Below, in pieces: positions 9,645 through 58,271 of a stretch of 64,000 nucleotides of DNA (its first letter is position 1; each line of letters begins with the position of its first letter). Location of the stretch: contig NZ_JAJSEC010000004.1 of NCBI RefSeq assembly GCF_021272185.1, positions 186,001-250,000 of the forward strand. Direction: 5' to 3'. Both the position numbers and the translations under genes were made by a program. The stretch is from Roseivivax sp. GX 12232 (GTDB lineage: Bacteria; Pseudomonadota; Alphaproteobacteria; Rhodobacterales; Rhodobacteraceae). The notes under the pieces are model-generated. The model was not told the origin of the DNA, made no database searches, and saw only the letters and a program-made list of their open reading frames with translations.

Positions 9645-11033
9645 TCACATGTGGATCGGGCCGTCGCCGCAGGCGAGGGCGGCTTCGCGGACGGCCTCGC
9701 TGTAGGTCGGATGGGCGTGGCAGGTCAGGGCCAGGTCCTCGGCGGCGGCGCCGAACTCCATGGCGACGCAGATCTCGTGGATCAGGTCGCCGGCCATCGG
9801 GCCGATGATATGGGCGCCGAGGATGCGGTCGGTCTTCTTGTCCGCGAGGATCTTCACGAAACCGTCGGCGGCGAAATTGGCCTTGGCGCGGCCGTTGCCC
9901 ATGAAGGAGAACTTGCCGAGCTTGTAGTCGCGGCCGGCCTCCTTCAGCTGCTCCTCGGTCTCGCCCACGGCGGCGACCTCGGGGTGCGTGTAGATCACGC
10001 TGGGGATCACCCCGTAGTTCACATGGCCCGCCTTGCCGGCGATGACCTCGGCGGCGGCCATGCCCTCGTCCTCGGCCTTGTGGGCGAGCATCGGGCCCTC
10101 GGTGGCGTCGCCGATGGCGTAGATGCCCTCGACGGAGGTCTGCCAGTGGCCGTCGGTCTTCACGAAGCCGCGGTCGGTCACCTCGACGCCGAGCTCCTTC
10201 AGGCCGAGGCCCTCGGTCACCGGCTTGCGGCCGGTGGCGACCAGCACGACATCGGCGTCGAGCACCTCTTCGCTGTCGTCCTTCTTCAGGCTGTAGGTGA
10301 CCTTGGCCTTGGTCTTCAGCGCCTCCACGCCCTGCACCGCGGCGCCGAGGATGAACTTCAGCCCCTGCTTCTGCAGCAGCTTCTGGAACTGCTTGGAAAC
10401 CTCGCCGTCCATCGTGGGGGTGATCTTGTCGAGATATTCGACCACCGTCACCTCGGTGCCGAGCCGGGCGTAGACCGAGCCCATCTCGAGGCCGATGACG
10501 CCGGCGCCGATCACCACCATCTTCTTCGGCACCTTGGAGAGCGAGAGCGCGCCGGTGGAGGAGACCACCGTCTTCTCGTCGATCTCGACGCCGGGCAGGG
10601 TGGCGACATCCGAGCCGGTGGCCAGGATGATGTGCTTGGCCTCATGGGTCTCGTCGCCGACCTTGACGCGGCCCTTCTCGGGGATCGAGCCCCAGCCTTT
10701 GAGCCAGTCGATCTTGTTCTTCTTGAAGAGGAACTCGATGCCCTTGGTGTTGGTCTCGATGGTCTCGGACTTGTAGCTCTGCATCTGCTCCCAGTCGACC
10801 GAGGGGCTTTTGCCCTTGAGGCCCATCTTGGCGAAGTTGTGCTCGGCCTCGTGCAGCTGGTGGGTGGCATGCAGGAGCGCCTTGGAGGGGATGCAGCCGA
10901 CGTTGAGGCAGGTGCCGCCCAGGGTCTCGCGGCCCTCGACGCAGGCGGTCTTGAGGCCGAGCTGCGCGGCGCGGATGGCGGCGACATAGCCGCCGGGGCC
11001 GGAGCCGATCACGATGACGTCGTAAGAAGCCAT
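9645..11033 (-). CDS. lpdA: Dihydrolipoyl dehydrogenase (E3)
   Basis: E3 reoxidises dihydrolipoamide on the lipoyl domains of 2-oxo acid dehydrogenases and passes electrons to NAD. The 462-residue protein has an N-terminal FAD site ([19 protein letters not shown]), the redox disulfide [15 protein letters not shown], an NAD site ([14 protein letters not shown]) and the C-terminal dimer-interface catalytic pair in [10 protein letters not shown]. It is the last gene of the minus-strand sucA/odhB cluster, so it most likely serves the 2-oxoglutarate dehydrogenase complex. The gap of about 108 bp to the MAPEG gene leaves room for a separate promoter. Confidence 0.97.
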
Positions 11034-12216: not shown

Positions 12217-13824
12217 TCACAGATCCATCAGCATGCGGCGGGGATCCTCGAGCGCCTCTTTCACGCGCACCAGGAAGGTCACCGCGCCCTTGCCGTCGAC
12301 GATGCGGTGATCGTAGCTCAGCGCCAGGTACATCATCGGGCGGATCTTGATCTCGCCGCCGATCACCATGGGCCGCTCCTGGATCTTGTGCATGCCGAGG
12401 ATGCCCGACTGCGGGGGGTTCAGGATCGGCGAGGACATCAGCGAGCCGTAGACACCGCCGTTCGAGATCGTGAAGGTGCCGCCCTGCATCTCGCCCATCG
12501 AGAGCTTGCCGTCGCGGGCGCGCTTGCCCTTGTCGGCGATGTCACCCTCGATCTGGGCGAAGCTCTTGCTGTCGGCGTCGCGGATCACCGGCACCACGAG
12601 GCCCTGGGGCGTGCCGGTGGCGATGCCCATGTGCACGAAGTTCTTGTAGATGATCTCGGTGCCGTCGATCTCGGCGTTGACCTCGGGGACCTCCTTCAGC
12701 GCATGGGCGCAGGCCTTGGTGAAGAAGGACATGAAGCCGAGCCGCACGCCGTGCTTCTTCTCGAAGAGATCCTTGTACTCCGAGCGCAGCGCCATGACCT
12801 CGGTCATGTCCACCTCGTTGTAGGTGGTCAGCATGGCCGCGTTGTTCTGCGCGTCCTTCAGGCGGCGCGCAATGGTCTGGCGCAGGCGGGTCATCTTGAC
12901 CCGCTCCTCGCGGGCCTCGTCCTCGGCGGAGACCGGGGCGCGGGGCGCCTTCGAGGCCTGGGCCTCGGTCGCGGGGGCGGATTTGGTCGCGGCGATGGCG
13001 GCATCGACATCGGCCTTCATCACCCGGCCGTCGCGGCCCGAGCCGGTGACCTGGTCGCGGCTCACGCCCTTCTCGGCCATGGCCTTCTTGGCCGAGGGCG
13101 CATCCTCCACGTCGGCGCGGCCCTGGCCGGCCTCGGGGGTGGAATACTGGGTGTCACCCTTGGGCGCGGCGGGCTCGTCGCCGCCATGGGCGGTGCCGGC
13201 GGTCGGCTTGGCCTCGGACTGGCCGGCGCCCGCGCCCTTGGTGATCACCGCGAGATGGCCGTTGGCCTCGACCGTGGTGCCTTCCTCGGCGCTGATCTCG
13301 GAGAGCGTGCCGGCGGCGGGGGCGGGCACCTCGACCGAGACCTTGTCGGTCTCGAGCTCGCAGAGCGTCTCGTCGGCGGCGACGCTGTCGCCGACCTTCT
13401 TGAACCAGGTCGAGACGGTCGCCTCGGAGACCGACTCGCCCAGCGTCGGGACCATCACGTCGACCCGCTCGCCTTCGCCGTCCTCGGCTTTGGGCGCGGC
13501 ATCGCCGGCGCCTTGGGCGGGCTTGGCTTCGGCCTCCTTGGCGCTGCCGCCCTTGTCGGACTTGGCGGATGCGTCGCCTGCGCCCGCGCCTTCCTCGATA
13601 TTGGCGAGAAGCGCGTCGACGCCCACGGTCGCGCCTTCCTCGGCGACGATCTCGGAGAGCGTGCCGGCGGCCGGCGAGGGCACCTCGACGGTGACCTTGT
13701 CGGTCTCGAGCTCGCAGAGCATCTCGTCGGCCTCGACGCGATCGCCGGGCTTCTTGAACCAGGTGGAAATGGTCGCCTCGGAGACGGATTCGCCCAGGGT
13801 GGGCACTCGGACTTCGGTGGTCAT
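12217..13824 (-). CDS. odhB: 2-oxoglutarate dehydrogenase E2 (dihydrolipoyl succinyltransferase), two lipoyl domains
   Basis: E2 transfers the succinyl group from E1 to CoA through a swinging lipoyl-lysine. This 535-residue protein has two lipoyl domains, with lipoylated lysines at about K43 ([14 protein letters not shown]) and K161 ([14 protein letters not shown]). They are joined by Ala/Glu/Lys-rich linkers to a peripheral-subunit-binding domain ([20 protein letters not shown], about 270-300) and the acyltransferase core ending [12 protein letters not shown]. Most E2o proteins carry only one lipoyl domain. ATG at 13824 is preferred, with AAGGA upstream; a GTG nine bases earlier overlaps the sucA stop and is the alternative. 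Confidence 0.96.
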
Positions 13825-13829
13825 CTCAC

Positions 13830-16805
13830 TCACTTTCCTTCGATCGTCAGCGCTTCGTCCACGAGCGCCTGTTGTTGTGCCTTATGCGCGCTGGCAAGCC
13901 CGGTCGCCGGCGAGGCCGTGGTTGGCCGGCCGATGTAGCGCGGGCGCGGGTAATCGGCGCCGATGCGGCCCAGGACCCATTCGATGTTGGGCTCGATGAA
14001 GGACCAGGCGCCCTGGTTCTTGGGCTCTTCCTGGCACCAGATCACCTCGGCCTGCTTGAAGCGTTCCAGCTCGTTCACCGCCGAGACCGCCGGGAAGGGA
14101 TAGAACTGCTCGATCCGCATCAGGTAGATGTCGTCGATACCGCGGGCGTCGCGTTCCTCGAGCAGGTCGTAATAGACCTTGCCCGAGCACAACACGACGC
14201 GCTTGATCTCGCTGTCGGGCTTCAGCTCGGTCTCCGACAGCCCCGCCTCGGCGTCGTCCCAGAGGACGCGGTGGAAGGACGAGCCGGTGACGAACATCTT
14301 CTCGTCCGAGACGCAGAGCTTGTGCCGCAGGAGCGACTTCGGCGTCATCAGGATCAGCGGCTTGCGGAACGACCGATGCAGCTGGCGCCGCAGGATGTGG
14401 AAGTAGTTCGCCGGGGTCGAGCAGTTCGCCACGATCCAGTTGTCCTGGCCGCACATCTGCAGGAAGCGCTCGAGCCGCGCCGAGGAGTGTTCCGGCCCCT
14501 GGCCCTCGTAGCCATGCGGCAGGAGGCAGACGAGGCCCGACATCCGCAGCCACTTCGATTCCCCCGACGAGACGAACTGGTCGAACATGATCTGCCCGCC
14601 GTTGGCGAAATCGCCGAACTGCGCCTCCCAGAGGGTCAGCGCGTTGGGCTCGGCCAGCGAGTAGCCGTATTCGAAGCCCAGGACCGCGTATTCCGACAGG
14701 GCGCTGTCGATCACCTCGATCCGGGCCTGGCCGTCGCGGATGTGGTTCAGCGGGTAGTAGCGTTCCTCGGTCTCCTGGTCGATCAGGGCCGAATGGCGCT
14801 GCGAGAAGGTGCCGCGAGTCGAATCCTGGCCCGAGAGGCGCACCGGGTAGCCCTCGGTCAGGAGCGAGCCGAAGGCCAGCGCCTCGGCGGTCGCCCAGTC
14901 GAAGCCCTTGCCGGTCTCGAACATCTTCTTGCGGCCGTCGAGCAGGCGCCCGACGGTCTTGTGCAGCGGGAAGCCGTCCGGCGGGCTGGTCATCGCCCGG
15001 CCCACGGCCTCCATGGTCTCTTTCTTGATCGAGGTCTTGCCGCGCTGGTATTTGCCCTGCTTCTGCTTGTCGAGGTGCGACCAGCGCCCGTCCAGCCAGT
15101 CGGCCTTGTTGGGCTTGTAGGTCTTGCCGGCCTCGAACTCCTCGTTGAGGTGGGACTGGAAGGCGGCCTTCATGTCCTCGATCTCGCCCTCGGGGATGAG
15201 CCCGTCCTTGACCAGCCGCTCGGTATAGAGCGTCAGCGTCGTCTTGTGCCCCTTGATCTGCTTGTACATCAGGGGGTTGGTGAACATCGGCTCATCGCCT
15301 TCGTTATGCCCGAAGCGGCGATAGCAGAAGATGTCGATCACCACGTCCTTGCCGAACTTCTGGCGGAACTCGGTGGCGACCTTGGCGGCATGCACCACCG
15401 CCTCGGGGTCGTCGCCGTTGACGTGGAAGATTGGCGCCTCGACCACCAGCGCGTTGTCGGTCGGATAAGGCGAGGAGCGCGAGAAATGCGGCGCGGTGGT
15501 GAAGCCGATCTGGTTGTTCACCACGATATGCACGGTGCCGCCGGTGCGGTGACCGCGCAGGCCCGACAGCGCGAAACATTCCGCCACGACGCCCTGGCCG
15601 GCGAAGGCCGCGTCACCGTGCAGCAGCACCGGCAGGACCTTGGTCCGGGTCGGGTCCTTGAGCTGGTCCTGCTTGGCGCGGACCTTGCCCAGGACCACCG
15701 GGTTCACCGCCTCGAGGTGGCTGGGGTTGGCGGTCAGCGAAAGGTGCACCTCGTTGCCGTCGAACTCGCGGTCCGAGGAGGCGCCGAGGTGGTATTTCAC
15801 GTCGCCCGAGCCGTCCACGTCGTCGGGCTTGAAGCTGCCGCCCTGGAATTCGTTGAAGATCGCCCGGTAGGGTTTGCTCATCACGTTGGCCAGCACCGAG
15901 AGCCGCCCGCGGTGCGGCATGCCGATCACCACTTCCTGCAGCCCCAGCGCGCCGCCGCGCTTCACGATCTGCTCCATCGCCGGGATCAGGCTTTCGCCGC
16001 CGTCGAGGCCGAAGCGCTTGGTGCCCATGTATTTGACGTGCAGGAACTTCTCGAAGCCCTCGGCCTCGACCATCTTGTTGAGGATGGCTTTCCGGCCCTC
16101 GCGGGTGAACTTCACCTCCTTGCCGTAGCCCTCGATCCGCTCCTTGAGCCAGGCCGACTGCTCGGGGTCGGAGATATGCATGTACTGCAGCGCGAAGGTG
16201 CCGCAGTAGGTGCGCTTCAGCACGCTGATGATCTCGCGCAGCGAGGCGATGTCGAGGCCCAGCACCTTGTCGATGAAGATCGGCCGGTCGAGGTCGGCGT
16301 CGGTGAACCCGTAGGAGCGGTAATCGAGCTCGGGGTGTTCCTCGTCGATGTTGCGCATGCCCAGCGGGTCGAGCTGCGCGGCCAGGTGGCCGCGGATGCG
16401 GTAGGCGCGGATGATCATCAGCGCCCGGATCGAGTCGAGCACCGCGCGCTGCACGTCGTCATCGGTCAGCTCGACCTTGGCGTCCTCGGCGCGGGACTTG
16501 ATCTTGTCGGCCGCGCCCTTGGCCTCGGCGGGCATCATCGGCATCGGCCATTCGCCGGTCAGCGCGGCGGTCAGCTCGTCCTGCGGCTGCGGCGGCCAGC
16601 CGGGCTTGGCCCAGGAGGGGCCCGCGGCCTCGCGCTTCACCTCTTTCTCGTCGTCGCCCAGGCTCTCGAAGAAGCGCTGCCAGGCCTCGTCGACCGCATT
16701 GGGGTCGTTGGCGTAGCGGGCATACATCTGTTCGAGGTATTCCGCGTTGTGCCCCTGCATGAAGCTCGAGGCGTGGAACTGATCGTTGGGGCTCTGGTCG
16801 GTCAT
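13830..16805 (-). CDS. sucA: 2-oxoglutarate dehydrogenase E1
   Basis: E1 decarboxylates 2-oxoglutarate with thiamine diphosphate and succinylates the lipoyl domain of OdhB. The 991-residue protein has the usual long form. The N-terminal E2-binding helix contains [12 protein letters not shown]. The thiamine-binding region includes [15 protein letters not shown], and the pyrimidine-binding domain [13 protein letters not shown]. The C-terminal part contains [20 protein letters not shown]. It lies five bases from odhB and is clearly co-transcribed with it. The ATG at 16805 is followed by [14 protein letters not shown], a plausible free N-terminus. Confidence 0.98.
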
Positions 16806-17114: not shown

Positions 17115-18002
17115 TCAGCCCTTGTCGATCGCGGCCAGGACCGCCTCGCCGAGGGTGGCGGGGCTGTCGGCGACCACGATCCCGGCGGAGTTCATCGCCT
17201 CGATCTTGTCCTCGGCGCCGCCCTTGCCGCCAGCGACGATCGCGCCCGCGTGGCCCATGCGGCGGCCCGGAGGCGCGGTGCGCCCGGCGATGAAGCCCGC
17301 GGTGGGCTTCCAGCGGCCCTTCTTCTTCTCGTCGGCGAGGAACTGCGCGGCATCCTCTTCGGCCGAGCCGCCGATCTCGCCGATCATGATGATGGCCTCG
17401 GTCTCGGGATCGTCGAGGAACCATTCCAGCACGTCGAGGTGCTCGGTGCCCTTGATCGGGTCGCCGCCGATGCCGACGCAGGTCGACTGGCCGAGGCCCA
17501 CGTCGGTGGTCTGCTTCACGGCCTCATAGGTCAGCGTGCCCGAGCGCGAGACCACGCCGACCTTGCCGCGCTTGTGGATGTGGCCGGGCATGATGCCGAT
17601 CTTGCAGGCGTCGGGGGTGATGACACCGGGGCAGTTCGGGCCGATCAGCTTCGACTTCGAGCCTTCCAGCGCGCGCTTGACCTTCATCATGTCGGCGACC
17701 GGGATGCCCTCGGTGATGCAGACGATCAGCTCCATCTCGGCGTCGATCGCCTCGAGGATCGAATCCGCGGCGAAGGGCGGCGGCACGTAGATCACCGACG
17801 CATTGGCCTCGGTGGCGTGCCGGGCCTCGTGCACGGAGTTGAAGACCGGCAGGTCGAGATGGGTCTGCCCGCCTTTGCCCGGCGTCACGCCGCCGACCAT
17901 CTTGGTGCCGTAGGCGATGGCTTGTTCCGAATGGAAGGTGCCCTGCGAGCCGGTCAGGCCCTGGCAGATCACCTTGGTGTTTTCGTCTACGAGAACGGCC
18001 AT
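17115..18002 (-). CDS. sucD: Succinyl-CoA synthetase alpha subunit
   Basis: SucD, with SucC, converts succinyl-CoA and NDP to succinate, CoA and NTP. The 295-residue protein has the N-terminal CoA-binding Rossmann domain ([19 protein letters not shown]), the second domain motif [13 protein letters not shown], and the phospho-histidine loop in [13 protein letters not shown]. It should form a heterodimer or heterotetramer with SucC. A small membrane-protein gene lies between sucC and sucD, which is unusual because the two are normally adjacent or overlapping. Confidence 0.98.
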
Positions 18003-18618: not shown

Positions 18619-19812
18619 TTACCCCTTCACCGCCTTCACGATCTTCGCGGCGCCGTCCTTGAGGTCGTCGGCGGCGATCACGTCGAGACCGGAGGTGTTG
18701 ATGATCTCCTTGCCCTTCTCGACGTTGGTGCCCTCGAGGCGCACCACCAGCGGCACCTTCAGGCCGACTTCCTTGACCGCGGCGACCACGCCCTCGGCGA
18801 TCACGTCGCAGCGCATGATGCCGCCGAAGATGTTCACCAGGATGCCTTTGACGTTCTTGTCCGAGGTGATGATCTTGAAGGCCTCGGTCACCTTCTCCTT
18901 GGTGGCGCCGCCGCCCACGTCGAGGAAGTTCGCCGGCTCGGCACCGTTGAGCTTGATGATGTCCATGGTCGCCATGGCCAGGCCCGCGCCGTTCACCATG
19001 CAGCCGATCTCACCGTCGAGCGCGATGTAGTTCAGGTCGTACTTGGAGGCCTCGAGCTCCTTGGGGTCTTCCTCGGTCTCGTCGCGCAGCTCGGCCACGT
19101 CGGACTGGCGGTAGAGCGCGTTGCCGTCGAAGGAGAGCTTGGCGTCGAGCACCTTCAGGTCGCCCTTGTCGGTGACGATCAGCGGGTTGATCTCGAGCAT
19201 CTCCATGTCCTTCTCGACGAAGGCGGTGTAGAGGATGCCCATCAGCTTGACGCATTGCTTGATCTGCTGGCCCTCGAGCCCCAGCGCAAAGGCGATGCGG
19301 CGGCCGTGGAAGGCCTGGTAGCCGGTCGCGGGATCGACGCTGAACGACAGGATCTTCTCGGGCGTGGAGGCGGCGACCTCCTCGATGTCCATGCCGCCCT
19401 CGGTCGAGCAGACAAAGGACACCCGGCTGGTGACCCGGTCGACCAGCAGCGCGAGGTACAACTCGCGCTCGATGTCCGAGCCGTCCTCGATGTAGATGCG
19501 GTTTACCTGCTTGCCCGCCGGGCCGGTCTGATGCGTGACCAGCGTCTTGCCGAGCATCTTGCGGGCTTCCTCGGCGGCCTCCTCGACCGACTTGGCCAGG
19601 CGCACGCCGCCCTTCTCGCCGGCGTCGGCCTCCTTGAAGCTGCCCTTGCCGCGGCCGCCGGCGTGGATCTGGGCCTTCACCACCCAGAGCGGGCCGTCGA
19701 GATTCGCGGCCTCGGTCTTGGCATCCGCCGCCTTCAGCACGACGCGGCCATCCGAGACCGGCGCGCCATAGCTGCGCAGGAGCGCCTTGGCCTGATACTC
19801 GTGGATATTCAT
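18619..19812 (-). CDS. sucC: Succinyl-CoA synthetase beta subunit
   Basis: SucC carries the ATP-grasp nucleotide domain and the subunit interface for SucD. The 397-residue length is standard. It starts [19 protein letters not shown], the family hallmark. The ATP-grasp region has [15 protein letters not shown], the magnesium/nucleotide region [13 protein letters not shown], and the C-terminal domain begins about [14 protein letters not shown] with [12 protein letters not shown] for subunit contacts. It heads the sucC-orf-sucD-sucA-odhB-lpdA block, about 110 bp downstream of a pair of GTGATCAC palindromes. Confidence 0.98.
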
Positions 19813-19921
19813 GTCATCCGTCCCGTGTTACTGCCTTTCGTGCCGCTATACCCAATCGCGCGGGGGCACTTGCAGTCAAATCGTGATGGACGGGCGCTAA
19901 CACGACAAAAAACCGACATTT

Positions 19922-19950
19922 GTGATCACTGGCTTTGCGGCTGTGATCAC
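19922..19950. promoter_or_regulatory. Paired GTGATCAC operators upstream of sucC
   Basis: Two copies of the 8-bp palindrome GTGATCAC lie at 19922-19929 and 19943-19950. Each is preceded by T on the plus strand (TGTGATCAC), and the centres are exactly 21 bp apart, about two helical turns, so a regulator could bind both on one face. They are 110-138 bp upstream of the sucC start. The same pair with the same spacing precedes sdhC (26325-26353). Weak -35-like TTGACT (19879-19874, minus strand) follows. The remaining part of the 371-bp gap to 20183 has no gene. Confidence 0.65.
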
Positions 19951-20183
19951 AAGTTGCGCGCCCTGCGTGACTCGGTCGCGCATGAGCCCGTGCGGCGCTG
20001 CATCACCGGGGCGGGAAAGGCGGTTCGGCGTTTTGACAGCCCGGGCGCCAGCGCGCAGCTTGGCGCGATGAAAGCCCGTCCTGCGCGTCATATCGAGAGG
20101 TTCGCCACCCGTTTCTGGGGTGGGGTTGGCGCGCGTTGTGGCCTCCGCGGGCGGCCCGTGGCGCCGCCCGCCCGGAGCCGCGC

Positions 20184-21146
20184 ATGACCCGCTGGGGCGT
20201 CGCCGCCACGGTCGCCGAGCCGCCCGCGCTCCTGGCCGGTTTCGTGGCGCATTACCTCTCGCTCGGCGCGAGCTCCGTGCGGCTCTACCTCGACCGCCCC
20301 GCGCCCGAGGCCGAGGCGCTCCTGTCCGACCTTCCGGGCGTCGAGCTGATCCGCGCGGACGCGGAGTTCTATCTCCGCACCCTCGGACGCCGGCGGCGGC
20401 CCGACCACCTCAACCGGCGGCAGCGGATGAACATCGACCACGCCTATGCCACGCTGCCGGTCGACTGGCTCCTGCACGTCGATGCCGATGAGTTCCTGGC
20501 CGCGCCGGAGTTCGCCGCGCGGCTCGCCGCCCAGCCGCCCGAGGTCGACAGCCTGCGCATCGCCAACGGCGAACGCGCCTGGCTCGCGGGACCGCCGCCG
20601 CGCACCATCTTCGAGGGCGTGTTGCGCTGGCAGGTGCCGGGACCGCGGCCCGCCGTCCGGGCGCGGCTCGGCCCCGAGGTCATGCGCTTCACCGACCGGG
20701 GGTTCTGCGGCCATGCGCTGGGCAAGAGCGTGACGCGCACCGGGCGCGGGCTGCGGCTCGGGCTGCACGCGCCGCGCCGCGAGCCCGTGGCGCGGATCAC
20801 GGAGATGTCTGACGCGCGGATCGTGCATTTCGACGGGCTCACCCGGGCGCATTGGAGCGCCAAGCTGATGCGCTACGCGGAGCAGGGGCTCTATGACGCT
20901 GCGCGCCCGGCGCAGCGGTTCCGCGCGGCGCAGATCGCCCATGTGACCGAGGCGGGCGGGCGTGCCGCGGCGGGGGCACTGCACGACCGGCTGCGGGTCC
21001 TGGGCGCGGCGGAGGCCGAGGCTCTGCGGTCCGAAGGTCTGCTCGAACCCATGCCCTGCGACCCGGCAGGCGCCGCGCGGGCGCTGTTCGGAGAGGGCTT
21101 CGATCTGTCGCCCGAGGGCTTCGACCGGGCGCTGGGGCTCGCCTGA
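20184..21146 (+). CDS. Glycosyltransferase family 2-like protein
   Basis: This 320-residue protein has an N-terminal Rossmann-like segment (VAHYLSLGASSVRLYLD) and a central WLLHVDADEFL, a DxD-type metal/nucleotide-sugar motif also found in the GT2/GT92-like group. Upstream, RRQRMNIDHAYATL fits the same family. The C-terminal third has a conserved-looking SDARIVHFDGLTRAHWSAKL. It would transfer a sugar to an unknown acceptor, probably for surface polysaccharide. It is oriented against the surrounding minus-strand TCA genes and converges on mdh. The start follows a GGAG seven bases upstream. Confidence 0.72.
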   Translation: MTRWGVAATVAEPPALLAGFVAHYLSLGASSVRLYLDRPAPEAEALLSDLPGVELIRADAEFYLRTLGRRRRPDHLNRRQRMNIDHAYATLPVDWLLHVDADEFLAAPEFAARLAAQPPEVDSLRIANGERAWLAGPPPRTIFEGVLRWQVPGPRPAVRARLGPEVMRFTDRGFCGHALGKSVTRTGRGLRLGLHAPRREPVARITEMSDARIVHFDGLTRAHWSAKLMRYAEQGLYDAARPAQRFRAAQIAHVTEAGGRAAAGALHDRLRVLGAAEAEALRSEGLLEPMPCDPAGAARALFGEGFDLSPEGFDRALGLA

Positions 21147-21220
21147 CGGAAGGCGCGTCGGGACGCCCCGTCGCCCAAGAGAACCGGACGCCCATCGCAA
21201 AAAAAGAAAACCAACCGCCC

Positions 21221-21250
21221 AAAAGAAAAGGGGCCGCCCGCGGCAGCCCC
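21221..21250 (-). terminator. Rho-independent terminator of mdh
   Basis: On the minus strand GGGGCTGCC and GGCGGCCCC form a stem with a 3-base loop, followed by TTTTCTTTT. It sits 28 bp after the mdh stop, between the convergent ends of mdh and the glycosyltransferase gene. Confidence 0.85.
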
Positions 21251-21277
21251 TTCTCCGAAGTCTCTAAGCCAGATCGC

Positions 21278-22372
<1,095 letters not shown>

Positions 22373-22414
22373 CTAACACTGGCCCGACGCTGTTGATTTC
22401 AGGACCGTTTTCAC

Positions 22415-23167
22415 ATGGAGATTCTAAGCTGGCCGGTCTTTGCCCTGGCCGTGCCCGCGGTGATCTTCGCGGGCATCTCGAAGGGCGGATTCGGCTCCGG
22501 GGCGGCCTTTGCCTCGGCCTCGATTCTGGCGCTGGTACTCGAACCCGGCGCGGCGCTGGGGCTGATGCTGCCGCTTCTGATGGTGATCGACGTGGTCAGC
22601 CTGCCGGCCTACTGGCGGCGCTGGAGCTGGCCCGAATCGCGGCTCCTGATCTACGCGGGACTGCCCGGCGTGGGGCTCGGGGCGCTGTTCTACCAATGGA
22701 CCAGCGCCGATGCGATCCGGCTGGTGATCGGGCTGGTCTGCCTGCTCTTCATCGGCTGGGCCTGGGCGCAGAAGTCCGGGCTGGTGCGGATCGAGCGCGC
22801 CATGGGGCGCCGCGCGGGCGTGCTGGCGGGGGTGACGCTGGGCTTCACCTCCTTCGTGAGCCATGCCGGCGGGCCGGCGGCGGCGGTCTACCTGCTGGGC
22901 CGGAAGCTCGACAAGACGGCCTTCCAGGCCTCCACCGTGCTGGTCTTCTGGGCGATCAACCTCTCCAAGGTCGGGATCTACGGGGCGATGGGCATCTTCA
23001 GCCGCGAGACGCTGCTGCTCGGGCTGGCGCTGGTGCCCGCAGCGCTATTGGGCACCTGGCTCGGCATCCGCGCGCATCGGCTGGTGCCCGAGCGGGTCTT
23101 CTTCGGGGTGACGTATGTCCTGCTGGCGGTGACCGGGAGCAAGCTGATCTTCGACGCGCTGACGTGA
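22415..23167 (+). CDS. TSUP-family membrane transporter (TauE/SafE-like)
   Basis: This 250-residue inner-membrane protein has about eight hydrophobic segments in two similar halves, the TSUP layout. The N-terminal half contains VIFAGISKGGFGSGAAF, close to the family's conserved glycine-rich start; the second half has FTSFVSHAGGPAAAVYLL, matching its HxGGP signature. Family members export sulfite or sulfoacetate or take up related organosulfur or other anions. The substrate here is unknown. It is divergent from mdh and not obviously part of the downstream mcl2 operon. Confidence 0.9.
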   Translation: MEILSWPVFALAVPAVIFAGISKGGFGSGAAFASASILALVLEPGAALGLMLPLLMVIDVVSLPAYWRRWSWPESRLLIYAGLPGVGLGALFYQWTSADAIRLVIGLVCLLFIGWAWAQKSGLVRIERAMGRRAGVLAGVTLGFTSFVSHAGGPAAAVYLLGRKLDKTAFQASTVLVFWAINLSKVGIYGAMGIFSRETLLLGLALVPAALLGTWLGIRAHRLVPERVFFGVTYVLLAVTGSKLIFDALT

Positions 23168-23563
23168 GGGGTGTGGAGCCGCGCAGCGCCGGGCCGGGGC
23201 GCGGCGATCCGACGGTCGGGCGGCGGCGCTTTATAGCAGCTATGTTTGGAAGAGGGTCTGGCGGCGTGCCTCGCTCCACCAAATCGCCGTGCCGTCCGGC
23301 CGGCCCGGCGATGCGCGGCGGCCTGCGGCCGGCTATTCCGCGCGGGAAGGGGGGCGGGCTTGGGTGGTTGAGGTGAGAAGTGGGCCGCATCACGCCTTTC
23401 AATGACGTGCCGTCTGCTCCGCAAAAAGCGCGCCCTTCACCGCCCCCAACCGACCACCCCCGCCCACCTCTCTGCACCGCGGCAATTTCTCCTTGAATGT
23501 TTCGTCAAAAACTGGCTGTCTCCGCGCAACATTATTTCGCGCGCAATCCAGAGAGGCCCCGCC
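23168..23563. other. Gene-free gap upstream of mcl2
   Basis: This 396-bp gap has no credible gene. Its last 80 bp become less GC-rich and carry the direct repeats CGCGCAA at 23523-23529 and 23540-23546 (17 bp apart) just before mcl2, which could be a promoter or operator region. There is no GTGATCAC pair here, unlike sucC and sdhC. Confidence 0.5.
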
Positions 23564-24415
23564 ATGATGACCCGTCCGCTTCGATCGGTGCTGTATATTC
23601 CCGGCTCCAAACCCCGGGCGATCGAGAAGGCGCGGGGCCTCGCGGTGGATGCGATCATCTTCGACCTCGAGGACGCGGTCTCGCCCGAGGAGAAGGCTGC
23701 CGCCCGCGCGACGCTCGCCGAGGAGCTGGAGAAAGGCGGCTTTGGCCTGCGCCTGAAGCTCGTGCGGATCAACGGGCTCGAGACCGACTGGGGCGCAGAC
23801 GACGCCCGCGCGGCTGCCGGGATGCAGGCCGACGCGGTGCTCCTGCCCAAGGTCGAAAGCACGGCCCAGCTCGATGCGCTGGCGCGGATCACCGGCGAGG
23901 CGCGGCTCTGGGCGATGATGGAGACCCCGCGCGGCATCCTGAACGCCGGCGAGATCGCGGCCCATCCGCTGATGGACGGCTTCGTCATGGGCACCAACGA
24001 CCTGGTGAAGGAGTTGGGTGCCCGGGCCACGCCCGACCGGCTCGCCATGCTGCCGGCGCTGGGCCAGTGCCTGCTCGCCGCCCGTGCCTATGGCATCGCG
24101 GCGGTCGATGGTGTCTACAACGCCTTCAAGGACACCGAAGGGCTCGCGGCCGAATGCCGCCAGGGCCGCGACATGGGCTTCGACGGCAAGACGCTGATCC
24201 ATCCCGCCCAGGTCGAGACCGCCAATGCCGCCTTTGGACCTTCGGAAGATGACCTCGACCTCGCCCGCCGCCAGATCGCCGCCTATGAGGCCGCCAAGGC
24301 CGAAGGGCAGGGGGTCGCGGTGGTCGACGGCAAGATCGTGGAGAATCTGCACGTAGACACGGCCCGCAAACTCTTGGCACAAGCAGAGGCAATCGACGCC
24401 ATCGAAAAAGGGTGA
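23564..24415 (+). CDS. mcl2: (3S)-malyl-CoA thioesterase-like CitE/HpcH-family protein
   Basis: This 283-residue TIM-barrel protein has family motifs: SVLYIPGSKPRAIEKA at the N-terminus, IIFDLEDAVSPEEK with magnesium-binding acidic residues, VRINGLETDWGADD, LLPKVES, MMETPRGILNA and GTNDLVKEL. In Rhodobacter sphaeroides the paralogue Mcl2 hydrolyses (3S)-malyl-CoA to malate and CoA, working with Mcl1 in the ethylmalonyl-CoA pathway, and lies in a similar mdh/mch/sdh neighbourhood. That context and the short length favour Mcl2 over the longer lyase Mcl1. A citrate-lyase-beta-like lyase is the alternative. The downstream gene starts five bases later. Confidence 0.85.
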   Translation: MMTRPLRSVLYIPGSKPRAIEKARGLAVDAIIFDLEDAVSPEEKAAARATLAEELEKGGFGLRLKLVRINGLETDWGADDARAAAGMQADAVLLPKVESTAQLDALARITGEARLWAMMETPRGILNAGEIAAHPLMDGFVMGTNDLVKELGARATPDRLAMLPALGQCLLAARAYGIAAVDGVYNAFKDTEGLAAECRQGRDMGFDGKTLIHPAQVETANAAFGPSEDDLDLARRQIAAYEAAKAEGQGVAVVDGKIVENLHVDTARKLLAQAEAIDAIEKG

Positions 24416-24420
24416 TCCCC

Positions 24421-24966
24421 ATGGTTCTGCTTGTCCTCGGCATCCTCCTCTGGAGCGCGGCCCATCTGTTCAAACGCGCCGCGCCCACGGCCTTCGAAGG
24501 GCTGGGCGGCGCCGGCAAGGGGCTGGTCGCCGCGGGCGTCTTCGCGGGGCTCGCGCTGATCGTCCTGGGCTACCGGGGCGCGGCCTTCATCCCGGTCTGG
24601 AGCCCGCCGGCCTTCATGGTCCACATCAACAACCTGCTGATGCTGGGGGCGGTCTTCCTCTTCGGGATGAGCGCCACCAAGGGCCGGCTGCGCGGCAAGA
24701 TGCGGCATCCGCAGCTCACCGCCGTGAAGGTCTGGGCAGTGGCGCATCTGCTGGTCAACGGCGACCTGGCCTCGATCCTGCTCTTCGGCTCGATGCTGGC
24801 CTGGGCCGTGGCCGAGGTCGTGGTGATCAACCGCAGCACCACCTGGGACCGCCCCGAACCGGGCCCCGCCAAGAAGGACGTCACCCTGGTGATCGTGACG
24901 CTCGTGGTCTTCACGGTGATCACCGGCGTGCACGCCTGGCTGGGCGTCTGGCCCTTCCCCTCCTGA
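24421..24966 (+). CDS. NnrU-like membrane protein
   Basis: This 181-residue protein has about five membrane segments. The N-terminal LLVLGILLWSAAHLFKR and the central KMRHPQLTAVKVWAVAHLL followed by NGDLASILLFGSMLAWAV match the NnrU family, named from a denitrification gene of Rhodobacter; the conserved histidines lie in those segments. Function is not established. ATG at 24421 is preferred; a GTG nine bases upstream that overlaps the mcl2 stop is the alternative. The gene sits between mcl2 and mch and is probably co-transcribed with them. Confidence 0.85.
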   Translation: MVLLVLGILLWSAAHLFKRAAPTAFEGLGGAGKGLVAAGVFAGLALIVLGYRGAAFIPVWSPPAFMVHINNLLMLGAVFLFGMSATKGRLRGKMRHPQLTAVKVWAVAHLLVNGDLASILLFGSMLAWAVAEVVVINRSTTWDRPEPGPAKKDVTLVIVTLVVFTVITGVHAWLGVWPFPS

Positions 24967-24985
24967 CAATCTCCGAGGTGAGACC

Positions 24986-25189
24986 ATGAAACTCTACCGC
25001 TTCCTCAGCGAGGACGACACCTCCGCCTTCTGCCACAAGGTCTCCGAGGCCCTGTCCAAGGGCTGGGAGCTTTACGGCGATCCGACCTATGCCTTCGACG
25101 CGGCCAACGGCGTGATGCGCTGCGGCCAGGCGGTGGTGAAGGAGGCGCCGGGCGACTACCACCCCGAGATGAAGCTGGGCGCGCAATGA
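24986..25189 (+). CDS. DUF1737-domain small protein
   Basis: This 67-residue soluble protein matches the DUF1737 pattern: MKLYRFLSEDDTSAFCHKV, then SKGWELYGDPTYAFD and a terminal GQAVVKE segment. No function is known. It overlaps mch by four bases (ATGA) and has GAGGTGAG upstream, so it is translated as part of the mcl2-nnrU-like-orf-mch operon. Confidence 0.88.
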   Translation: MKLYRFLSEDDTSAFCHKVSEALSKGWELYGDPTYAFDAANGVMRCGQAVVKEAPGDYHPEMKLGAQ

Positions 25190-26229
25190 GCGAGCCCAAG
25201 AGCAAGACCAACGCGGGCCGCTTCTTCGAGGATTACCGCGTCGGCCAGGTGATCGACCACGCGGTGCCGCGCACCGTCGGCGCGGGCGAGCGGGCGCTTT
25301 ATCACGCGCTTTATCCCGACCGGCACGCGCTCTGCTCCTCGGATGCCTTCGCCCGCGCCTCGGGGCTGGCGCAAAGCCCGATCGACCCGCTGGTCGCCTT
25401 CCACGTGGTCTTCGGCAAGACCGTGCCGGACATCTCGCTGAACGCCCGGGCCAACCTGGGCTACGCCGAGGGGCGCTGGCACCAGCCGGTCTTCGAGGGC
25501 GACACCCTGCGCGCCCGCTCCGAGGTGATCGGGCTGAAGGAGAACTCCAACGGCCGCACCGGCATCGTCTGGGTCCGCAGCGAAGGGCTGAACCAGGACG
25601 GCGCGCGAGTGATGAGCTACGTCCGCTGGGTCATGGTGAACAAGCGCGACCCCGTCGCGCCCGCGCCCGAGCCGCATGTGCCCGAGCTGGCGCCCGCGCT
25701 CTCGGCCGCTGACCTCGCGGTGCCGCCGGGGCTCGATTTCACCGGCTACGACTTTTCGCTGGCCGGAGAGCCGCACCGGCTGGGCGACTACCGCCCCGGC
25801 GAGGTGATCGACCATGTCGACGGCGTCACCGTCGAGGAGGCCGAGCACATGATCGCCACCCGGCTCTGGCAGAACACCGCCAAGGTGCATTTCGACGCCA
25901 CCCAGCGCGAGGACGGCAAGCGGCTGATCTACGGCGGGCATGTGATCTCCATGGCGCGGGCGCTCTCCTTCAACGGGCTCGCCAATGCGCAGCTCGTCGC
26001 GGGGCTGAACGCGGGCAGCCATGCCAACCCCTGTTTCGCCGGCGACACGCTGCGCGCCTGGTCCGAGGTGCTGGACACCGCCGAGACCGAAGCGCCGGGC
26101 GTCGGCGCGATCCGGCTGCGGCTTGTGGCGACCAAGGAAGCGGCGCCGGGCGACCTCAAGGATGCCTCGGGGCGCTACCTGCCGGGGGTGCTTCTCGACC
26201 TCGATTACTGGGCGCTGATGCCGGTCTGA
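25186..26229 (+). CDS. mch: Mesaconyl-CoA hydratase (beta-methylmalyl-CoA dehydratase)
   Basis: Mch hydrates mesaconyl-C1-CoA to beta-methylmalyl-CoA in the ethylmalonyl-CoA pathway. The 347-residue protein has two hot-dog/MaoC-like halves: the first has GRFFEDYRVGQVIDHAVPR and SDAFARASGLAQSPIDPL, the second DYRPGEVIDHVDGVTVEEAE and YGGHVISMARALSFNGL with the conserved histidine. Size, duplicated architecture and position between mcl2 and sdhC agree with the Rhodobacter enzyme. A generic MaoC hydratase is a less likely alternative. Confidence 0.93.
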   Translation: MSEPKSKTNAGRFFEDYRVGQVIDHAVPRTVGAGERALYHALYPDRHALCSSDAFARASGLAQSPIDPLVAFHVVFGKTVPDISLNARANLGYAEGRWHQPVFEGDTLRARSEVIGLKENSNGRTGIVWVRSEGLNQDGARVMSYVRWVMVNKRDPVAPAPEPHVPELAPALSAADLAVPPGLDFTGYDFSLAGEPHRLGDYRPGEVIDHVDGVTVEEAEHMIATRLWQNTAKVHFDATQREDGKRLIYGGHVISMARALSFNGLANAQLVAGLNAGSHANPCFAGDTLRAWSEVLDTAETEAPGVGAIRLRLVATKEAAPGDLKDASGRYLPGVLLDLDYWALMPV

Positions 26230-26324
26230 GACCGGGCCCGGAAGCCCCCGCGCGCCCCCGTCCGAGGGGGCGCGGACTGTTAACGCCAACGGATTCGCGG
26301 GGATTTCCGTCAGGGGCGTTTTCT

Positions 26325-26353
26325 GTGATCACACGTATCGGCCTTGTGATCAC
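26325..26353. promoter_or_regulatory. Paired GTGATCAC operators upstream of sdhC
   Basis: GTGATCAC occurs at 26325-26332 and 26346-26353, each with a preceding T, centres 21 bp apart. The pair lies 117-145 bp before the sdhC start. Spacing, core and distance match the pair before sucC, which strongly suggests one shared DNA-binding protein. Confidence 0.65.
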
Positions 26354-26411: not shown

Positions 26412-26439
26412 GTGACAGCGCGGCAATTTCGATTAGAAC
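26412..26439 (+). promoter_or_regulatory. Candidate sdhC promoter
   Basis: GTGACA (26412-26417) and TAGAAC (26434-26439) are separated by 16 bp, about 30 bp before the sdhC start. The paired palindromes lie 59 bp upstream of the -35, a position suited to either an activator or a looping repressor. Confidence 0.4.
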
Positions 26440-26469: not shown

Positions 26470-26853
26470 ATGGCCGACGTGAATCGGGGCAACCGGCCCC
26501 TCTCGCCGCATCTGCAGGTCTACCGCCCGCAGCTCACCTCCGTCACCTCGATCCTGACCCGCATCACCGGCAATGCGCTGATCGTCGCGATCCTGATGAT
26601 CGTCTGGTGGTTCATCGCCGCCGCCTCGGGCCCCGAGGCCTTTGCAACGGCCGACGGTTTCGTGACCAGCTGGTTCGGTGACCTGGTGATGTTCCTGTCG
26701 CTCTGGGCGCTTTGGTATCACTTCCTCGCCGGGATCCGGCACCTGGTCTGGGACAGCGCGCGGATGCTCGAGCTGGAGACCGCCGAGAAGCTGGGCTGGG
26801 CCGTCGTCGGCGGATCGGTCGTGCTGACCGTCCTGACCGCCCTGATCGTCTGA
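26470..26853 (+). CDS. sdhC: Succinate dehydrogenase cytochrome b556 subunit
   Basis: SdhC is one of two membrane anchors of complex II and helps bind heme b and ubiquinone. The 127-residue protein has three membrane helices. RPLSPHLQVYRPQLTSVTS at the N-terminus and ILTRITGNAL correspond to the quinone-site motif with its serine and arginine; the usual histidine before that arginine is a threonine. The heme-ligand histidine lies in FLAGIRHLVWD. It is the first gene of sdhCDA, with a clear AAAGGACT region before ATG. Confidence 0.96.
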   Translation: MADVNRGNRPLSPHLQVYRPQLTSVTSILTRITGNALIVAILMIVWWFIAAASGPEAFATADGFVTSWFGDLVMFLSLWALWYHFLAGIRHLVWDSARMLELETAEKLGWAVVGGSVVLTVLTALIV

Positions 26854-26867
26854 AGGAGGCGCGAGAC

Positions 26868-27239
26868 ATGGCTTATATGACCGACCGCAAGCGCGCCGAG
26901 AACTGGGGCAGCGCGAAATCCGGCACCGCGCATTTCTGGCGCATGAAGGTGCAATCCGTGGGTCTGCTGATCCTGGTGCCGCTGTTCGTCTTCACCTTCG
27001 GCCCGACGCTCGGCGGCAGCTACGAAGAGGTGACGGCCTATTTCGCCCGGCCCTTCCCGGCGATCGTGGCTGCGTTGACGATCCTCGTCACCTGCCTGCA
27101 CTTCAAGGACGGCTTCCAGACCCTGGTCGAGGACTACGTCCACGGGATCTGGGAGAAGGTCCTGATCCTCGGCATGACCTGCCTGATGTATGCGCTCGCC
27201 GCGACCGGCCTCTTCGCCGTCGCGCGCCTGGCGCTCTGA
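26868..27239 (+). CDS. sdhD: Succinate dehydrogenase membrane anchor subunit
   Basis: SdhD is the second membrane anchor of complex II. The 123-residue protein begins [20 protein letters not shown], then [15 protein letters not shown]. Three membrane helices follow. [18 protein letters not shown] carries the histidine expected near heme b and the conserved EDYVH. ATG at 26868 follows GAAGGAGG. It lies 14 bases after sdhC. Confidence 0.95.
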
Positions 27240-27261
27240 ATTCGCGGAGTTTCACAGAGAC

Positions 27262-29067
27262 ATGGCTGAATACGAATACGAGACGCATGATTATGACGTC
27301 GTGGTCGTGGGCGCCGGGGGCTCGGGCCTCCGGGCGACCCTGGGCATGGCCGAACAGGGCCTGAAGACCGCCTGCGTCACCAAGGTCTTCCCGACCCGCT
27401 CGCACACGGTGGCGGCGCAGGGCGGCATCGCCGCCTCGCTGTCGAACATGGGCCCCGACCACTGGCAGTGGCACATGTATGACACGGTGAAGGGCTCGGA
27501 CTGGCTGGGCGACACCGACGCGATGGAATACCTCGCGCGGAACGCCCCGGCGGCGGTCTACGAGCTCGAGCACTACGGCGTGCCCTTCTCGCGCACCGAG
27601 GAAGGCAAGATCTACCAGCGCCCCTTCGGCGGCCATACCACCGAGTTCGGCGAAGGCCCCCCGGTGCAGCGCACCTGCGCCGCCGCCGACCGCACCGGCC
27701 ACGCGATCCTGCACACGCTTTACGGCCAGTCGCTGAAGAACAACGCCGAGTTCTACATCGAGTATTTCGCCATCGACCTTCTGATGGACGATGACGGCAC
27801 CTGCACCGGCGTGGTCTGCTGGAAGCTCGACGACGGCACCATCCACGTCTTCAACGCCAAGATGGTCGTGCTGGCGACCGGCGGCTACGGCCGCGCCTAT
27901 TTCTCGGCGACCTCGGCGCATACCTGCACCGGCGACGGCGGCGGCATGGTGGCCCGCGCGGGCCTGCCGCTCCAGGACATGGAGTTCGTGCAGTTCCACC
28001 CCACCGGCATCTACGGTGCGGGCTGCCTCATCACCGAGGGCGCCCGCGGCGAGGGCGGCTATCTCACCAACTCCGAAGGGGAGCGCTTCATGGAGCGCTA
28101 CGCCCCCAACTACAAGGACCTGGCGCCGCGCGACTACGTCTCGCGCTGCATGACCATGGAGATCCGCGAAGGCCGGGGCGTCGGCAAGAACGGCGACCAC
28201 ATCCACCTCAACCTCTCGCATCTGCCGAAGGAGGCGCTGCAGCTGCGCCTGCCCGGCATCTCCGAGAGCGCCCGGATCTTCGCCGGCGTCGATGTCACCA
28301 AGGAGCCGATCCCGGTCATCCCGACGGTGCATTACAACATGGGCGGCATCCCGACGAACTACTGGGGCGAGGTGCTGAACCCGACCCAGGACGACCCCAA
28401 CAAGGTGGTCCCCGGCCTGATGGCCGTGGGCGAGGCGGGCTGCGCCTCGGTGCATGGCGCCAACCGCCTGGGTTCGAACTCGCTGATCGACCTGGTGGTC
28501 TTCGGCCGCGCCGCGGCGATCCGGGCGGGCGATGTCGTCGACCGCGCCGCCTCGCCCCGTGCGGTGAACAAGGGCCAGGTGGACAAGGCGCTCGACCGCT
28601 TCGACGGGCTGCGCCACGCCCAGGGCGCCACGCCCACCGCCGAGCTGCGCCTCGACATGCAGACCACCATGCAGGAGGACGCCGCCGTCTTCCGCACCGG
28701 CGAGACCATGGGCAATGGCGTCAAGCGCATGACCGAGATCGCCGGCCGCATGTCGGACATCCAGGTCACCGACCGCAGCCTGGTCTGGAACTCCGACCTG
28801 ATGGAGACGCTCGAGCTGACCAACCTCATGCCCAACGCCCTGGCGACCATCGTCTCGGCCGAGGCCCGGACCGAGAGCCGCGGCGCGCATGCCCATGAGG
28901 ACCACCCCGAACGTGACGACAGCACCTGGCGCGTGCACACGATCAGCCGCATCGCCGAGGCCAAGGTCGACCTCGAGTACCGCCCGGTGATCACCGACCC
29001 GCTGACCCAGGAACAGCAGGGCGGCATCGAGCTGCAGAAGATCGCGCCCAAGGCGCGGACCTTCTGA
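27262..29067 (+). CDS. sdhA: Succinate dehydrogenase flavoprotein subunit
   Basis: SdhA oxidises succinate to fumarate with covalent FAD. The 601-residue protein has the FAD-binding Rossmann motif [16 protein letters not shown], the flavinylated histidine in [11 protein letters not shown] (about H48), the substrate-site motif [14 protein letters not shown], and [13 protein letters not shown] with the catalytic arginine region; the C-terminal helical domain ends IAPKARTF. Its stop shares one base with the start of the lipoprotein gene. Unusually, sdhB does not follow directly. Confidence 0.98.
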
Positions 29068-30322: not shown

Positions 30323-31102
30323 ATGGTCCAACTGACGCTTCCCAAGAACTCCACCATCCGCACCGGCAAGACCTGGCCGAAGCCGGAGGGGGCGACCCGT
30401 CTCAAGACCTTCAAGATCTACCGCTGGTCGCCGGACGACGGGGAAAACCCGCGCGTGGACACCTATTTCCTCGATCTCGACGCCTGCGGCCCGATGGTTC
30501 TGGACGCGCTGATCAAGATCAAGAACGAGATTGACCCGACGCTGACCTTCCGCCGCTCCTGCCGCGAGGGCATCTGCGGCTCCTGCGCGATGAACATTGA
30601 CGGGATCAACACGCTGGCCTGCATCTACGGCATCGACGAGGTGAAGGGCGACGTGAAGATCTACCCGCTGCCGCATATGCCGGTGGTCAAGGACCTCATT
30701 CCGGACCTGACGCATTTCTACGCGCAGCACGCCTCGATCATGCCCTGGCTCGAGACCAAGACGAACCGCCCCGCGAAGGAATGGCGGCAGTCGATCGAGG
30801 ACCGCGAGAAGCTCGACGGTCTCTATGAATGCGTGATGTGCGCCTCCTGTTCGACGGCCTGCCCGTCCTACTGGTGGAACGGCGACCGCTACCTCGGGCC
30901 CGCGGCGCTCCTGCACGCCTACCGCTGGATCATCGATTCGCGCGACGAGGCGACCGGTGAGCGGCTGGACGACCTGGAGGATCCCTTCAAGCTCTACCGC
31001 TGCCACACCATCATGAACTGCGCGAAGACCTGCCCGAAGGGTCTGAACCCGGCCAAGGCCATCGCGGAGATCAAGAAGATGATGGTCGAGCGCGCGATCT
31101 GA
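30323..31102 (+). CDS. sdhB: Succinate dehydrogenase iron-sulfur subunit
   Basis: SdhB passes electrons from FAD to quinone through three clusters. The 259-residue protein shows all ligands: CREGICGSC plus a cysteine 11 residues later for [2Fe-2S], [12 protein letters not shown] for [4Fe-4S], and [12 protein letters not shown] for [3Fe-4S]. The N-terminal ferredoxin domain starts about residue 25 ([15 protein letters not shown]). It completes the sdhCDA-orf-orf-sdhB operon. Confidence 0.98.
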
Positions 31103-57406: not shown

Positions 57407-57455
57407 TCTTCATTCTCCCATCATGCCGAGGCGGTCTGTCCGCTCTGACCGTTTT

Positions 57456-57469
57456 ATTTTGATCAAATT
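57456..57469. promoter_or_regulatory. AATTTGATCAAAAT palindrome between spuD-like and gntR
   Basis: ATTTTGATCAAATT on the plus strand is a near-perfect palindrome (TTTGATCAAA core at 57458-57467). It lies midway between the divergent binding-protein gene and the GntR gene. The same core precedes the aminotransferase (58376-58389) and the decarboxylase (34201-34214). Confidence 0.6.
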
Positions 57470-57572
57470 CGGCGGCACCTCGCAACATTGGGATGTTTTC
57501 ACCAGTGCGGCGCCCGTGCAAGATGGGCCGCATTGCCCGGCAAGCGGGCATCACGGCAGGATGAGGGCGGAG

Positions 57573-58271
57573 ATGAAGACTTCGGCAGATCAGGCGGAGA
57601 CCCCGGGCGCGGCGCGGCTGCCGGTGCACGAACAGGTCTACCGCCAGCTGCGCGACATGATTCTGTTCGGCGAGCTGGCGCCGGGGCAGGCGGTGACCAT
57701 CCAGGGGCTGACCGAGGTCCTGGACGCTGGCATGACGCCGGTGCGCGAGGCGCTGCGCCGGCTCACCGCCGAAGGGGCGCTGGATTTCCGCGGCAACCGG
57801 CGCATCGCGGTGCCCGAGCTCGACGCCGAGGCGCTGGAGGAGCTGACCGTGGCGCGCCGGGCGCTGGAGCCCGAGCTTGCCCGCCGCGCCACCGCCCGGA
57901 TCGACGCCGCGGGCATCACCCGCCTGCGCGAGATCGACGCCGCGCTCGACGCCGCCATCGCCCGGGGCGACGTCGGCGGCTATCTGACCGGGAACCACCA
58001 TTTCCACGCGACGCTGAACGGGTTCGCCGGTGCGGCGATCCTCACCGGGCTGGTCGACGGGCTCTGGCTGCGCTTCGGCCCCTCGCTGCGGGTGGTCTGC
58101 GGGCGTTTCGGCACCGAGGGGCTGCCCGACCGCCACAAGGAGCTGATCGCCGCGCTCGAGGCCGGCGCCCCCGAGGCCGCCGCACGGGCCATGGACGAGG
58201 ACGTGCTGCAGGGCATGGAGCAGATCGCCGAGGGGCTCGGGCCCCGGGCCGTCCCGCCTGCGTGCGGCTGA
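57573..58271 (+). CDS. GntR/FCD-family regulator of polyamine genes
   Basis: This 232-residue regulator has an N-terminal GntR winged helix (VHEQVYRQLRDMILFGELAP, then LTEVLDAGMTPVREALRRL) and a C-terminal FCD effector domain with the metal-ligand histidines of NHHFHATLN. It probably represses the polyamine genes by binding the TTTGATCAAA palindromes and releases them when polyamine binds. ATG at 57573 is chosen; ATG at 57561 is also possible. The final 12-bp repeat array starts within its last codons. Confidence 0.9.
   Translation: MKTSADQAETPGAARLPVHEQVYRQLRDMILFGELAPGQAVTIQGLTEVLDAGMTPVREALRRLTAEGALDFRGNRRIAVPELDAEALEELTVARRALEPELARRATARIDAAGITRLREIDAALDAAIARGDVGGYLTGNHHFHATLNGFAGAAILTGLVDGLWLRFGPSLRVVCGRFGTEGLPDRHKELIAALEAGAPEAAARAMDEDVLQGMEQIAEGLGPRAVPPACG

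Follow-up and report, generated by a model that had tools for sequence, protein, structure and literature searches.

What reads the paired palindromes that stand before two tricarboxylic acid (TCA) cycle operons of Roseivivax sp. GX 12232? In the 64,000-nt stretch of DNA analyzed here (the window), the palindrome GTGATCAC is found in 11 places, and 4 of the 11 make two pairs, one before sucC on the minus strand and one before sdhC on the plus strand, with the palindrome centres 21 bp apart in both. An earlier note on this DNA had described the two pairs, which were found at the coordinates it gave, but had regarded no regulator as assignable to them. That last view did not hold, since the palindrome, the regulator AkgR and its target operons are in print for Rhodobacter sphaeroides (available parts of PMC6365646 and PMC4344238). 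The paired DNA switch of both TCA operons most likely binds AkgR, and it is considered highly probable that the four palindromes are AkgR operators on which pairs of dimers activate sucCDAB-lpd and sdhCDAB, with akgR being self-repressed. The sites, their spacing and conservation, the orthologue, the synteny, the joint presence with akgR and the near-fixed distance to the sdhC -35 box were computed for this study; the motif, the regulator, its activator role and the target prediction are taken from what is available of the published work on R. sphaeroides.

The distal operator of the sucC pair (19943..19950, minus strand) has its GTGATCAC core in TGTGATCACA, and the centre of the proximal operator (GTGATCAC, 19922..19929, minus strand) is 21 bp away. 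The distal operator of the sdhC pair (26325..26332, plus strand) is likewise a TGTGATCACA with a GTGATCAC core and is followed by the proximal operator (GTGATCAC, 26346..26353, plus strand). All four operators were identified by exact match and by the alignment of homologous upstream regions. The near edge of the pair lies 109 nt before the start codon of sucC (ATG at 19812, minus strand) and 116 nt before that of sdhC (ATG at 26470, plus strand), which bears out the 110–117 bp reported earlier. Genome-wide (38 contigs, 4,120,283 bases) there are 146 copies of GTGATCAC, and the scan for pairs that the earlier note had proposed returned only those before sucC and sdhC at a gap of 0–30 bp. A Poisson estimate puts the expected number of pairs spaced by exactly 21 bp at 0.005, and two were seen (P of two or more ~1e-5), as befits the claim that such pairs are unlikely to form by chance. 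In the open reading frames tried, six of the seven unpaired window copies read as the codons GTG-ATC-ACN (Val-Ile-Thr) and one (11311) is out of frame; most single copies are thus explained by coding bias, again as had been supposed. TGTGATCAC occurs in 11 places in the genome overall; its single places outside the pairs were partly examined, and none of them is claimed to add a member to the regulon.

The pair is conserved among relatives. A survey of 295 genomes of the same family, one per genus, identified an exact pair with a 12–14 bp gap in 266, and a gap of 0–30 bp yielded an exact pair in 57 out of 101 relatives (own genome counted). Among the plus-strand matches listed in the family survey the spacing is nearly always 21 bp and never 22 bp; a spacing of 20 bp was counted by eye six times among the matches listed (G334, G182, G222, G199 and twice G181). 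Ten genomes picked for having two pairs were fetched, and all 20 pairs are located directly before sucC and sdhC. Aligned upstream regions contain an exact 21-bp pair in 24 out of 30 cases for sdhC and 23 out of 30 for sucC, rising to 25 and 28, respectively, if up to two mismatches are allowed. A 21-bp pair scoring at least 14/16 is missing from five sdhC regions, two of them in genomes without akgR (G012 and G016), two with a single site (G017 and G020) and one misread at a locus cut by a contig end (G015), and from two sucC regions (G010 and G017) that both have 20-bp pairs. The palindromes are nearly invariant in these alignments, and the 13 bases between them vary. A pair that is unconserved, or that is scattered without a link to genes, had been named as grounds for abandoning the proposal of one regulator of succinate-node genes; both were looked for and neither was found, and the proposal stands.

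Additional arrangements of the palindrome were observed in some relatives. Three GTGATCAC sites 21 bp apart precede sucC in Pseudotabrizicola sediminis (L118:19903-19952) and in a metagenome-assembled genome of Gemmobacter nectariphilus (L124:20188-20237), the latter having a fourth site 26 bp further. Spacings of 21 and 26 bp both occur in locus L133, and genome G050 contains a third exact 21-bp pair (G050:C16:228293-228321) off the suc/sdh contig.

The AkgR regulon of R. sphaeroides was reportedly described by Imam et al. in 2015, the source that PMC6365646 cites for it. The available part of PMC6365646 names GTGATCAC as one of the sites bound by AkgR, which is an activator of the GntR family in this species, and that of PMC4344238 predicts that the GntR-family protein RSP_0981 (AkgR) regulates RSP_0967-6 (succinyl-CoA synthetase), RSP_0974-6 (sdh) and RSP_0965-62 (alpha-ketoglutarate dehydrogenase). 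One of the genomes in our set, G059, is taken to be R. sphaeroides 2.4.1 because three published chromosome-1 motifs from chromatin immunoprecipitation sequencing fall inside the published peak coordinates (available part of PMC4344238). G059 contains 21-bp pairs before sucC (2729961 and 2729982) and before sdhC (2734765 and 2734786), and a GntR gene (akgR, 2739663-2740310) just beyond sdhB. The position of this gene is near that expected from the tag numbering in the available part of PMC4344238, which suggests that it may be RSP_0981.

An intact akgR orthologue of 224 amino acids with GntR and FCD domains is present on the minus strand of the Roseivivax sp. GX 12232 genome (G000:C33:349159-349833, corresponding to L066:9159-9833). 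The protein is 72% identical to that of G059 over the alignment; with the AkgR profile it reaches 415 bits, against 178 bits for the second-best GntR protein of the genome (window 57597-58226). TGTGATCACA is located 11 nt before the akgR ATG. The akgR gene lies within the suc/sdh neighborhood in 6 out of 10 fetched genomes, and among 80 named AkgR loci the same fetched stretch contains sdhB in 5 and sucB in 31, many of the stretches ending at contig ends. Where the named loci include enough upstream sequence, the pair is found before sdhC in four out of five and before sucC in seven out of seven. The closest named locus is that of Cereibacter ovatus (94%).

The presence of the pair was compared with the presence of akgR across the 295 genera, with AkgR called at an E-value of at most 1e-60 (members of the AkgR clade score >200 bits). 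Exact pair and AkgR are both present in 260 genera and both absent in 21, and a further 8 have AkgR only and 6 the pair only (Fisher P = 1.5e-20 for joint presence, without correction for descent). The lists behind these counts were read by eye and then recounted, and seven akgR-negative genomes were scored by absence from the list. Genomes without akgR and without an exact pair reach a best pair score of 9–13/16 at sucC (n = 15) and 9–11/16 at sdhC (n = 12). Two akgR-bearing genomes that had counted as pair-less, G048 (both genes) and G339 (sucC), possess the pair with one mismatch. The gene start was not found in this promoter check for sucC of G157, G249 and G016 and for sdhC of G056, G339, G257, G022 and G107. 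In a SucC tree of 49 rows, from which G242 was left out, each trait changes six times and one contrast alone lies on well-supported branches; independent co-loss of the pair and akgR is therefore suggested rather than proven.

In the window, a candidate sdhC -35 box (GTGACA, 26412..26417, plus strand), conserved in the alignment of homologous promoters, starts 62.5 bp after the centre of the proximal operator and is followed, after a 16-bp spacer, by a candidate -10 box (TAGAAC, 26434..26439, plus strand) identified from the sequence. The pattern GTGAC[AT], which was picked after the alignment had been viewed, lies 61.5–64.5 bp past the proximal operator centre in 23 out of 25 sdhC promoters, and the distance in the remaining two is 51.5 bp (G031) and 40.5 bp (G026), that is, 11 and 22 bp nearer. 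The distance from the -35 box to the start codon is variable (57–112 nt, measured from SdhC residue 8 in G030) despite the near-fixed distance to the operator. This near-fixed distance suggests that a single face of the DNA is used for activation. At sucC, a simple promoter score peaks 51.5–53.5 bp from the operator in 15 out of 28 promoters, closer than at sdhC by about one turn of the helix. The sucC promoter of Roseivivax sp. GX 12232 has no clear -35 box; its candidate -10 box (TATAGC, 19845..19850, minus strand) was assigned by comparison with homologous promoters. The sequence GCTAACA at window 19896-19902 (TGTTAGC on the sucC strand), directly beyond the sucC pair, resembles a half-site of CceR, the motif of which is [AGT]GTT-N6-8-AAC[ACT] (available part of PMC4344238).

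In the proposed mechanism each palindrome would hold one dimer of AkgR, a GntR/FadR-type protein with GntR and FCD domains. Two palindromes that are in phase and two helical turns apart suggest that the two dimers sit side by side upstream of the -35 box, both on one face of the helix; at sdhC, assuming a transcription start ~35 bp downstream of where the -35 box begins, the operators would be centred at about -98 and -119. Bound AkgR would help RNA polymerase to start transcription of sucCDAB-lpd and sdhCDAB, and an activator fits sites that are upstream of the promoter, at a fixed distance and on one face, better than a repressor does. Where akgR has an operator, this is flanked by a TTGAC-type box on one side and by the start codon on the other; a protein bound there should hinder transcription, and AkgR on this single operator would repress its own gene. 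For Roseivivax sp. GX 12232 we infer binding, activation, a class-I-like polymerase contact, autorepression and an effector, and the spacing suggests cooperativity of the two AkgR dimers.

Several observations weigh against the assignment to AkgR. In two genomes akgR is present without a pair at the promoters examined, which are those of both genes in G329 and that of sdhC in G249, and six genomes have an exact pair without a detected akgR (G027, G144, G162, G304, G312 and G321). Three of these six are 73–77% complete, and the assemblies are fragmented in G304 and G162, with exact pairs at both genes, and in G027, with one at sucC. The Fisher test overstates independence because the losses are clustered and a single contrast is well supported. 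The sucC -35 box is weak, and just the 15 out of 28 best scores mentioned above fall at 51.5–53.5 bp. The akgR loci of Cereibacter ovatus and C. flavus contain no suc or sdh gene in their 10-kb flanks, the palindrome before akgR is exact in just 26 out of the 80 named loci, and the 160 nt upstream of akgR in G059 contain no GTGATCAC; akgR autoregulation may be a trait that some clades have gained or lost. Finally, the palindrome is common to other GntR proteins (available part of PMC6365646).

The sharing of the palindrome bears on an alternative in which AkgR is replaced or joined at the sites by another GntR/FCD paralogue of this genome or by a co-opted relative. The genome contains 27 GntR-domain matches, and the paralogue that scores 178 bits with the AkgR profile is encoded in the window itself (57423-58271). 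A Pseudomonas GntR protein with 32% identity has been suggested to act through this palindrome (available part of PMC6365646), and in G074, a genome of another family, a related GntR gene has a pair with 22-bp spacing nearby. The pairs, however, track the AkgR clade and are absent from most genomes without AkgR, even from those with other GntR proteins. Among the 27 GntR loci the palindrome stands just before the GntR gene solely in that of AkgR (L033), whereas L013 and L035 have it elsewhere in the stretch fetched, and no GTGATCAC is present within the ~3 kb examined around the paralogue at 57423-58271. We regard this alternative as improbable.

Ownership of the sites by a CRP/FNR-type regulator, which would have to read TGTGA-TCACA half-sites without a spacer, appears very improbable. 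The half-sites do resemble TGTGA/TCACA, the CRP consensus. CRP-type sites have a 6-bp spacer between the half-sites, whereas the half-sites abut in GTGATCAC. Moreover, the published owner of the palindrome is of the GntR type (available part of PMC6365646) and the presence of the pair tracks akgR. The probability that the pairs reflect chance, or are a by-product of GATC and Val-Ile-Thr composition, is close to nil. The 146 single copies and the Val-Ile-Thr reading of six out of seven unpaired window copies speak for such an origin, but both pairs are non-coding and conserved in the 266 genera, they exceed the 0.005 expected, and their spacers vary between invariant sites; a chance origin of the pairs was rejected, as it is refuted by this conservation.

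The genes of both operons were identified with NCBIfam and Pfam (SucC, SucD, SucA, SucB, Lpd, Mdh, SdhC, SdhA and SdhB), upholding the names sucC and sdhC given in the earlier note. The first controlled operon is on the minus strand and begins with sucC (succinate-CoA ligase beta, 18619..19812), followed by sucD (17115..18002), sucA (2-oxoglutarate dehydrogenase E1, 13830..16805), sucB (dihydrolipoyl succinyltransferase, 12217..13833) and lpd (dihydrolipoyl dehydrogenase, 9645..11033), which was placed in the operon by gene order and strand. The controlled sdh operon is on the plus strand and begins with sdhC (26470..26853), with sdhA (27262..29067, searched as 27190-29067) and sdhB (30323..31102) further downstream. 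Between the two operons lie mdh and a mesaconyl-CoA-hydratase-type gene.

For R. sphaeroides the regulator, the motif and the target operons are already known (PMC6365646 and PMC4344238, available parts). No account of the tandem pair, of how it is phased or of the operator upstream of akgR was found in the available parts of the sources (PMC4419725, PMC6365646, PMC4344238, PMC11323563, PMC7471390, PMC5507952 and PMC8557541) or in search listings, and the primary AkgR paper may contain one. A broader proposal, for which we see the case as evenly balanced, is that the 21-bp pair would be a two-dimer AkgR activation module in promoter register at both TCA operons, combined with single-site autorepression of akgR in many genera. 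If true, the alphaproteobacterial TCA cycle would have a conserved homeostatic circuit, to which some genera have added further in-phase sites. An orphan motif here becomes a testable case of a known regulon that is widespread in the family (266/295 genera), and strict 21-bp pairing together with a fixed promoter distance that changes in steps of about one turn offers a clean and easily mutated system for activation by GntR/FCD proteins. The operator that many genera have before akgR suggests feedback; at this position the R. sphaeroides model genome is without such a loop.

Among known proteins, the nearest solved structure by profile is the FadR-type GntR protein McbR of E. coli (PDB 4p9f, E = 1e-23, positions 18-205), with which sequence similarity is distant and which controls other target genes. 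E. coli NanR, also a GntR/FCD protein, binds tandem repeats cooperatively as several dimers and is a repressor with another motif and ligand; it may serve as a mechanistic parallel by analogy. A genome from a different family of the class (G074:C1, L311:8808-8837) has two GTGATCAC sites spaced by 22 bp between genes for a TonB-dependent receptor and an alpha/beta-hydrolase, ~2.5 kb from an AkgR-like GntR/FCD gene; this is perhaps a sister system that uses the same motif for other genes. The PS417_07240-type GntR protein of deoxyribonate clusters in Pseudomonas simiae has the same palindrome at -47 to -40, upstream of the gene that encodes it, but differs in its targets, is 32% identical to R. 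sphaeroides AkgR and is not mentioned together with a tandem pair in the available part of PMC6365646. Compared with R. sphaeroides, akgR of Roseivivax sp. GX 12232 shares a contig with sdhC at a distance of ~137 kb instead of being next to sdhB, and has its own upstream operator, which is absent in G059. The AkgR regulon of R. sphaeroides is otherwise alike in the palindrome GTGATCAC, the sucCD and sdh targets, the orthologous GntR/FCD protein and the 21-bp pairs of G059.

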